Below, piece by piece: positions 33,751 through 35,544 of a stretch of 64,000 nucleotides of DNA. Both the position numbers and the translations under genes were made by a program. Position 1 is the stretch's first letter. Each line of letters opens with the position of its first letter. A model generated the notes under the pieces. That model was not told the origin of the DNA, did not search any database, and saw nothing but the letters and a program-made list of their open reading frames with translations. Source of the stretch: an uncultured Pseudomonadota bacterium (GTDB lineage: Bacteria; Pseudomonadota; Gammaproteobacteria; Methylococcales; Methylomonadaceae); assembly GCA_903867225.1 (NCBI GenBank), contig CAIPQN010000033.1, forward strand, positions 1-64,000, in the 5' to 3' direction.

Positions 33751-33781
33751 CGGCGTATTGTTTTGGCAATGCGCCGTTTTT
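33751..33781 (+). terminator. Terminator after the DHH gene
   Basis: CGGCGTATTG (33751-33760) pairs with CAATGCGCCG (33767-33776, one wobble), followed by TTTTTATT. It isolates the DHH gene from the accessory patch that follows. Confidence 0.85.
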
Positions 33782-33799
33782 ATTAAAGGGATTTTCATC

Positions 33800-34798
33800 A
33801 TGCGAGAAATAGGTCAAATAATGAATTATCTGAAAGCAGTAATACCACTTGCGTTTTTAGTTGTGAACATAGCGCAAGCTACAGAAATCACGAAAACAAG
33901 CGCAACAGGAACGACGTTTAAATTTACGGCGACGTTAGATGCGCCTTTAATGACTGGTTATAAAGTCAAAATCGACTTTGGCAAAGGCGGTTTAAAAGCA
34001 ATGACTTGTTTTGCTAAAACTTGTACGTTGTCATCGAACGTTTTGCCGAGTGGTGTTAGCACAGCGACTTATAAAATTGGAATTTATAATAATAATGTTT
34101 TACAAGGTTCAACGTCTGATGGAACTTATGTTATTTCGCCTACCACTGCAACAACAACTTCAACTTCAATAAAACCAACCGAAGGCTACACAAAAATCGC
34201 CAACAACGGTTCTGTACTTTCAGATTCTGCAAAACTCGGTACAGCTCCAACCGATTGGGCTTGCACCAAAGACAACAAAACAGGCTTGATTTGGGAAGTG
34301 AAAACAACGGATGGCGGCTTGCGGGATATGAATAATTCTTACACCAATTACACGCCCGATTATCCGAAATGTGATGATGCCATTTACGGTGCTGGAAACT
34401 GTAAGGAATTTGGTTTTACTGGCAAATACGGCGACAACACAAACACGGATGGTTTTGTCAATGCAGTAAATAATCAATCTTTATGCGGCACAACAGATTG
34501 GCGATTGCCGACCAATGAAGAACTTAAAGGTTTGGTTTATTGCTCTGATGGTAAATACAAAAATCTGAGCAAAGATGAAACTGGTTATATTTGTTCAAGT
34601 AATGGTGCGCCCAATTACACTTTAACGACGACTTCGCCAACGATTAACACAACGTATTTCCCAAATACACAAAGCAATTGGTTTTGGTCTTCTTCGCCTC
34701 TTGCTGGAAGTAGTGGTGCGTGGTTTGTCTTCTTCAACAACGGCGGTTCGTACTACCTCGATATGGTCAATAACTATTTTGTTCGGTTGGTTAGGTAG
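33800..34798 (+). CDS. Exported DUF1566 (Lcl-type, C-type-lectin-fold) protein
   Basis: 332 residues. Signal peptide near the start (MNYLKAVIPLAFLVVNIAQA; the ATG could be 33800 or 33821), a beta-rich domain (about 30-125), a Thr-rich linker, then DUF1566 (about 150-332) with GLIWEVK, WRLPTNEELKGLVYC, FWSSSP and a final NYFVRLVR. DUF1566 ends at a hallmark Val-Arg-Leu-Val-Arg and is a known scaffold for variable regions of diversity-generating retroelements. The last 120 bases have NNC-type codons unlike the rest of the gene. The terminator at 33751 excludes the earlier in-frame start at 33758. Confidence 0.85.
   Translation: MREIGQIMNYLKAVIPLAFLVVNIAQATEITKTSATGTTFKFTATLDAPLMTGYKVKIDFGKGGLKAMTCFAKTCTLSSNVLPSGVSTATYKIGIYNNNVLQGSTSDGTYVISPTTATTTSTSIKPTEGYTKIANNGSVLSDSAKLGTAPTDWACTKDNKTGLIWEVKTTDGGLRDMNNSYTNYTPDYPKCDDAIYGAGNCKEFGFTGKYGDNTNTDGFVNAVNNQSLCGTTDWRLPTNEELKGLVYCSDGKYKNLSKDETGYICSSNGAPNYTLTTTSPTINTTYFPNTQSNWFWSSSPLAGSSGAWFVFFNNGGSYYLDMVNNYFVRLVR
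34676..34798 (+). other. Candidate DGR variable region (VR)
   Basis: The 3' end of the DUF1566 gene. Codons from about 34729 read GTC TTC TTC AAC AAC GGC, then TAC TAC CTC GAT ATG GTC, ending in C far more than neighbouring genes, which prefer T or A. This is what adenine-specific mutagenesis of AAC codons leaves: bases 1-2 vary while the final C is kept. The region ends in GTTCGGTTGGTTAGG just before the stop, a plausible initiation-of-homing tail. No reverse transcriptase or template repeat is in the window, so it would be a remote or orphan target. Confidence 0.5.
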
Positions 34799-34861
34799 CG
34801 ACAGTGTTTTTTCCTTTTGTTTTGTTGTGGGGCGGGATTTGGTGGATGGGCGTTTTGATGT

Positions 34862-34954
34862 AGGGGCAGACCTGTGTGTCTGCCCTGCAACGAACAAAAC
34901 TTCCATTCTGGACGTTGCGTGAATTGGAGGGCGCACACGCAGGTGCGCCCGTAC
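34862..34954 (+). repeat. REP pair upstream of RAYT gene
   Basis: Two hairpins: GGGCAGAC (34864-34871) with GTCTGCCC (34878-34885), and GGGCGCAC (34929-34936) with GTGCGCCC (34943-34950), each an 8-bp stem with a 6-nt loop. The same pair, in the same order and spacing, recurs at 35243-35341. The arrangement is a BIME-like unit next to its probable transposase. Confidence 0.85.
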
Positions 34955-34977
34955 AAATAAAATTTTTTGGATTTTTT

Positions 34978-35544
34978 ATGAAATACAATCCTGATATTCA
35001 TCATCGGCGTTCGATTCGGTTGAAAAATTATGATTATTCACAGGCGGGATTATATTTTGTGACGATTTGCGTGAATAATCGGTTGTCGTTGTTTGGACAA
35101 ATTGTGAATGGTGAAATGTTGTTAAATGATGCGGGAAAAATGATTGAAAAATGGTGGTTTGAAATGGCGTGTAAATTTGGGCAATTGGCGTTGCATGAAT
35201 TTGTGGTGATGCCGAATCATTTTCACGGAATAATCGAAATCGTAGGGGCAGACCTGCGTGTCTGCCCTGCAATGAACGAGACACCCATTGTGGAAGTGGA
35301 AGTTGTGCGAATGGAGGGCGCACACGCAGGTGCGCCCCTACATGAAATCGTGCAATGGTTTAAAACCATGACAACAAACGAGTATATCCGAAATGTCAGA
35401 CAAAACCATTGGCAACCATTTGAAAACAAATTATGGCAACGCAATTACCATGAACACATCATTCGCAACGAAACAGCCTATGTAAAAATTGCCGAGTATG
35501 TTCAAACAAATCCACAAAAATGGCACGATGACTGTTATTTTTAA
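34978..35544 (+). CDS. REP-associated tyrosine transposase (RAYT, Y1 family)
   Basis: 188 residues from the ATG at 34978. Y1_Tnp/RAYT features: RRSIRLKNYDYSQAGLYFVT at the N-terminus, the HUH-type metal site MPNHFHGI, and a C-terminal NYHEHIIRN segment with the catalytic Tyr region. RAYTs cut and move REP palindromes. Between IIEIV and HEIVQWFKT there is an extra stretch of about 33 residues encoded by a REP pair; it keeps the frame, so the protein may still be active. The region lies between the DUF1566 gene and an M16 protease gene. Confidence 0.88.
   Translation: MKYNPDIHHRRSIRLKNYDYSQAGLYFVTICVNNRLSLFGQIVNGEMLLNDAGKMIEKWWFEMACKFGQLALHEFVVMPNHFHGIIEIVGADLRVCPAMNETPIVEVEVVRMEGAHAGAPLHEIVQWFKTMTTNEYIRNVRQNHWQPFENKLWQRNYHEHIIRNETAYVKIAEYVQTNPQKWHDDCYF
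35243..35341 (+). repeat. REP pair inserted in frame inside the RAYT gene
   Basis: Hairpins GGGCAGAC (35246-35253) with GTCTGCCC (35260-35267), and GGGCGCAC (35316-35323) with GTGCGCCC (35330-35337). The sequence between hairpins resembles that of the upstream pair. It codes for ADLRVCP... and EGAHAGAP in the transposase frame without a stop. Confidence 0.85.

Follow-up and report, generated by a model that had tools for sequence, protein, structure and literature searches.

A Lcl_C (DUF1566) gene of an uncultured Methylomonadaceae bacterium is a probable orphan target of a diversity-generating retroelement

Can a gene be recognised as the target of a diversity-generating retroelement (DGR) when no DGR reverse transcriptase (RT) is found in its genome, and if so, where did its variable end come from? 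The question is raised by a gene for a Lcl_C-domain protein in the window analysed here, that is, the whole 64,000-nucleotide stretch at the start of contig CAIPQN010000033.1 (assembly GCA_903867225.1), from an uncultured bacterium of the Methylomonadaceae. DGR targets have an established role as binding proteins with randomised codons. The evidence set out below makes it very probable that this gene carries a genuine DGR variable repeat (VR) at its 3' end, which was last overwritten by mutagenic retrohoming, and that the gene is an orphan target in this assembly.

A Lcl_C gene with a signal-peptide-like N-terminus

The gene lies within an ORF at 33758-34798 on the forward strand, in which the first ATG is at 33800:

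33800..34798, + strand: gene of a probable DGR target (variable protein) of 332 aa, counted from the first ATG

A profile search identified a Lcl_C (DUF1566, PF07603) domain (E 5e-25) in the C-terminal part of the protein, preceded by an N-terminal domain that is common to other targets in the genus and is related to the corresponding region of a target in the G014 cassette described below. Judged by eye, the N-terminus is hydrophobic and signal-peptide-like; the protein carries no conflict domain. With the VR at the 3' end of the gene, the PF07603 domain is of the C-type-lectin type of ligand-binding domain by which DGR targets are recognised. The structure model of this domain was of moderate quality (mean pLDDT 69, pTM 0.70), which is too coarse for mapping the variable residues, and its top match in the PDB, 8Q4E (Lcl-CTD), was weak (probability 0.90, E 0.094, 16% identity); a sequence search of the PDB with the target returned no match. 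By analogy with known DGR targets, the protein would most likely be an exported binder with a randomised recognition surface.

Directly downstream of the target we noted a Y1-type (IS200-like, RAYT-like) transposase gene (34860-35544, with its stop codon at 35542-35544 and a probable ATG at 34978). Paired REP-like palindromes (GGGCAGACCTG.GTGTCTGCCC and GGGCGCACACGCAGGTGCGCCC) are found upstream of this transposase gene and inside it.

Changes at the 3' end fall mainly on template adenines

The last 40 codons of the target ORF and its stop codon (34676-34798), which end in GTTCGGTTGGTTAGG, hold the repeat, and a constant block overlaps its end:

34679..34795, + strand: variable repeat (VR), with about 18 codons that are AAC/AAT in the template, their first and second bases free and the third kept
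34763..34765, + strand: ATG codon, corresponding to AAG in the template and so changed at an adenine
34781..34824, + strand: constant 3' block (GTTCGGTTGGTTAGGTAGCGACAGTGTTTTTTCCTTTTGTTTTG), IMH-like, extending past the stop codon

The initial annotation had taken the richness of this gene end in NNC codons as the footprint of a DGR. The sequence is as it described, with 11 NNC codons among the last 41 (67 of 347 over the whole gene), but 82 windows of 41 codons within the target gene equal the 3' end in this respect. The richness is thus not above chance within the gene, and we dropped it as stand-alone evidence.

A codon alignment of the C-termini of its Lcl_C (DUF1566) relatives in the genus showed about 18 codons with free first and second bases and a mostly fixed third base, which is C or T depending on the column. 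The variable columns sit between the invariant motifs WSSSP.A and AW.V.F..G.S....K.....VRLVR, and the window VR is one codon shorter than most copies, owing to a deletion in the first loop. The columns differ in which third base is fixed, and the codons in them specify a wide range of amino acids, a pattern that selection at the protein level does not readily produce. The initial annotation had named two findings that together would speak against a DGR, namely a genome without an RT or an adenine-differing repeat, and orthologues with conserved residues at the NNC positions. The first was what we observed in the target's own assembly (see below), but the second was not, the NNC positions being the most variable positions of the homologues.

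Compared with the G014 template, the window VR is changed at 24 of 39 adenine sites and at 9 of 78 other sites (Fisher p=3.6e-8). The differences lie mainly at template adenines, the chief mark of a DGR VR, the template in this comparison being that of a congener and not of the target's own genome. The third base agrees with the same template in 14 of the 18 variable codons, which are AAC or AAT in that template with one ATC, where 7.0 would be expected from codon usage (P=2.7e-4). Upstream of the repeat, in a comparison of the same gene with nine homologues, the bias is reversed, with 13-25% of A sites and 25-35% of other sites changed. As a control, we examined six further Lcl_C places of this genome, of which two yielded an identical alignment, and saw no comparable bias (non-A changes 26-38%, p 0.005-0.6).

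A predicted template lies beside an RT and Avd in a congener

We inferred a template by setting each variable codon to AAC or AAT and used it as the query against 41 genomes. Its closest counterpart, well ahead of the rest, was G014:C196:3210-3327 (96%), which lies about 270 bp from the only RT match in that genome, the congener MAG LJ-3-4m_bin-0427 (G014). The 6.5-kb contig concerned (CAIQZX010000196.1) carries, in order, a 784-aa target, a 123-aa Avd, the template, a 489-aa RT and a 173-aa second Lcl_C target. The RT contains IGNLTSQ and YVDD motifs (by reading) and matches RVT_1 (7.5e-17) and phrog_1423, and the Avd matches phrog_3206 (1.7e-18) and PF22296. Counted over a 120-nt core, the two targets on this contig have changes at 16-17 of the 41 template adenines and at 1-2 of the 79 remaining bases. 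This contig is a complete DGR in a congener, with RT, Avd, template and targets together. The earlier proposal, in which a template with AAC codons gave rise to the VR by A-to-N mutagenesis, is thus supported, in that an AAC/AAT template predicted from third bases exists beside the RT and Avd of a congener.

The 784-aa main target of this contig (L147, G014:C196, 3869-6223) has N-terminal caspase (Peptidase_C14) and PKD domains, followed by the variable Lcl_C domain, which suggests a conflict or defence-type sensor. A relative of this caspase target (676-679 aa) occurs in another species, G010, beside metabolic genes and without an RT; we considered it as the site of a lost cassette, and dropped this idea given the metabolic neighbours and the lack of an RT.

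The reading in which no DGR was involved, and an ordinary Lcl_C domain has variable surface loops and a C-rich codon choice, can draw on the NNC richness, which alone is not significant within the gene, and on the lack of an RT or template in the target's own genome. It is contradicted by the A-site specificity and third-base fixation in the window VR, by the ordinary Lcl_C domains of the same genome, which show no A-site bias, and by the discovery of the predicted template next to an RT and Avd. We consider it very improbable.

The constant block resembles an IMH

The constant 3' tail pointed out in the initial annotation, GTTCGGTTGGTTAGG, recurs unchanged in several related targets. Likeness to other targets runs about 28 nt beyond the stop codon (TAGCGACAGTGTTTTTTCCTTTTGTTTTG) and then ends abruptly, with identity at 29 of the first 31 nt in the G010 and G011 copies. 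Most targets read GACAGTG within this block, as does the window gene at 34800-34806, whereas the templates of G014 and of G019, a member of another genus, read GAGAGTG. The target form of the IMH-like block is therefore unlike the form in these two templates. An IMH/IMH* asymmetry between target and template is established for DGRs, and the GACAGTG/GAGAGTG contrast resembles it, so that the block may be presumed to act as an IMH. The target's own genome contains exactly two GACAGTG-type blocks, in the window and on contig C32, and no block of the GAGAGTG template form.

Mutagenic retrohoming is established DGR biology, from which we infer how the window VR would have been written. An AAC/AAT-rich template RNA would have been copied by an error-prone DGR RT, with random bases placed opposite adenines. 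The resulting cDNA, with the constant GTTCGGTTGGT...GACAGTG block as its anchor, would have taken the place of the last part of the Lcl_C domain. The window gene would then belong to a family of trans targets dispersed within this genus of freshwater Methylococcales.

The template used was not exactly that of G014, because the window VR has 9 of 78 non-A differences from it and one codon fewer. Compared with a template inferred for its own sub-lineage, the VR has 5 of 78 non-A changes, in what is a partly circular comparison. On reading of the alignment, three of these five sit in a GTTAGG tail, which leaves about two in the body, plus the one-codon deletion. The GTTAGG/TAGCGACAGTG tail is common to targets of several species, and the tail and the missing codon together point to a template that was a sister form of the G014 template.

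The DGR core is missing from the target's own assembly

No RT had been seen near the gene in the initial annotation, and this holds for the whole of its genome as searched. In this assembly (2.64 Mb, 110 contigs, 94.9% complete) we found no RT, whether with the PF00078 profile or as a relative of the G014 RT, and no match to Avd. An adenine-tolerant 57-nt pattern, searched for in the window and the own genome, identified only the locus itself, and a search of the own genome with the inferred template identified only three targets. Since RT, Avd and template are absent from the assembly, the window gene is an orphan target. Beyond cellular genomes, we found no relative of the cassette RT in IMG/VR, only distant relatives (under 60%) and no close one in phage and plasmid records, and no template-like pattern in IMG/VR.

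The genome encodes nine Lcl_C domains. We additionally identified DGR-type VRs in two other Lcl_C genes of this genome (L154, G000:C32:60227-60343, - strand; L155, G000:C85:14058-14174, + strand), which have 13 of 79 and 15 of 79 non-A changes relative to the inferred template. With only five such changes in the window VR, the window target was probably rewritten more recently than these two, to judge from the sequences.

On this evidence, a cassette that was lost or is patchy, and left the gene behind, is somewhat more likely than a core that still serves it from an unassembled stretch or an unbinned mobile element. Had the lineage lost its cassette, the VR would be a fossil, no longer edited and drifting under ordinary protein selection, and to this we give about an even chance. 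It agrees with the lack of any core part in a genome that is 94.9% complete, with the finding that, of the 18 genomes of the genus, G014 alone has both a detected DGR RT and an Avd, and with the erosion of the two other own targets (13 and 15 of 79 non-A changes). An exact precedent is provided by strains of Treponema denticola with targets but no RT or TR (PMC4891356). Against a fossil stand the few non-A changes of the window VR (5 of 78 relative to the inferred template, about two of them outside the shared tail) and the state of the targets in G010. In that assembly (98% complete, 40 contigs) we found no RT, Avd or template, and its freshest targets (L073, L075, L152) are nearly perfect, with 0-1 of 79 non-A changes relative to the inferred template. 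These targets suggest that the absence of an RT from an assembly need not mean a long-standing loss.

The fresh targets of G010, where no RT was found, would fit another reading, in which the cassette is present in the cell and still edits the window gene in trans. It would then have gone missing from the assembly because it broke at the repeats, sits on a small contig left out of the bin, or is carried by a plasmid or phage. The contig of the G014 cassette is itself 6.5 kb long and has the RT flanked by two repeats, and such contigs are easily dropped in binning; several VRs of another species, G009, are located at contig ends; and the editing of remote targets in trans has been documented (PMC10907252). 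However, 17 of the 18 genomes lack the RT, which is a lot for chance gaps at the stated completeness, and no close relative of the RT was found in the phage, plasmid or viral collections. We therefore regard a live target as plausible, while leaning against it.

Finally, a diversified target gene may have been acquired ready-made, by horizontal transfer from a cassette-bearing lineage into a species that never had the cassette. This would fit the presence of GTTAGG/TAGCGACAGTG-tailed targets in several species, the RAYT transposase gene with its REP-like repeats just downstream, and the outcome of a same-site comparison, in which no target among the loci examined from relatives had the window's neighbours next to it. 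However, the genome has three targets with unequal erosion, pointing to repeated or older exposure to a DGR, and we think such an origin unlikely.

Targets outnumber detected cassettes in the genus

Species of the genus have up to 19 Lcl_C matches each. Repeats of the template type number 11 in G014 (the template included), 11 in G010, 13 in G009 and 3 in the genome of the window. Tentatively, the genus may keep a dispersed repertoire of targets (at most about a dozen per genome) and a core that moves and is held by few strains at a time, with episodic diversification in trans; we consider this picture possible, with more doubt than confidence.

We additionally identified an RT on contig C494 of G006, a genome in which no Avd was detected; this RT shares only about 32% identity with that of G014. 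Related DGR RTs (38-66% identical) occur in other genera of the same family (L149 in G024, L150 in G019, L151 in G018 and L200 in G077), with template-like AAC/AAT-rich repeats close by.

Discussion

The case shows that a genome need not contain an RT for its DGR targets to be recognised, nor for the template behind them to be predicted base by base. Surveys for DGRs that begin with the RT miss such genes, and in this genus targets far outnumber the detected cassettes. Two aspects place the case above the routine: the targets by themselves sufficed to predict the template, which was then located, and the surplus of targets is genus-wide. It also becomes a testable question whether the DGR cores of freshwater Methylococcales are lost, unassembled, or shared between lineages.

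The closest system is the G014 DGR, which has the same target domain, variable codons and 3' block, and from whose template the window VR differs mainly at adenines. It differs in possessing an RT, Avd and template, none of which was found in the window's genome, and the window VR has the GTTAGG tail.

In T. denticola, some strains have targets but no RT or TR, and the core is distributed patchily among close strains (9 of 17; PMC4891356). There, too, targets in genomes without RT and TR differ from a relative's template mostly at adenines; that case falls within one species, whereas ours extends across species of a genus, and the target family described there is not the same (PMC4891356). Thiohalocapsa PB-PSB1 has multi-locus DGRs with remote trans targets that match the template at non-A sites, and the conflict-type domains on its targets recall the caspase domain of the G014 target (PMC10907252). 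That organism, in contrast, has its RT, and sequencing reads showed variation (PMC10907252); the window protein has no conflict domain.

The C-terminal domain of Legionella pneumophila Lcl (8Q4E) has a C-type-lectin-like fold and binds glycosaminoglycans (PMC11162425). Lcl shares its Pfam domain with the window target and provides the weak top match to our model, but that work does not present it as a DGR target (PMC11162425). Among the Pfam domains of DGR targets, DUF1566 is reportedly the most frequent (PMC6642488). The window VR thus adds to known phenomena, as stranded and remote DGR targets, and DUF1566 targets, have already been documented (PMC4891356, PMC10907252, PMC6642488).
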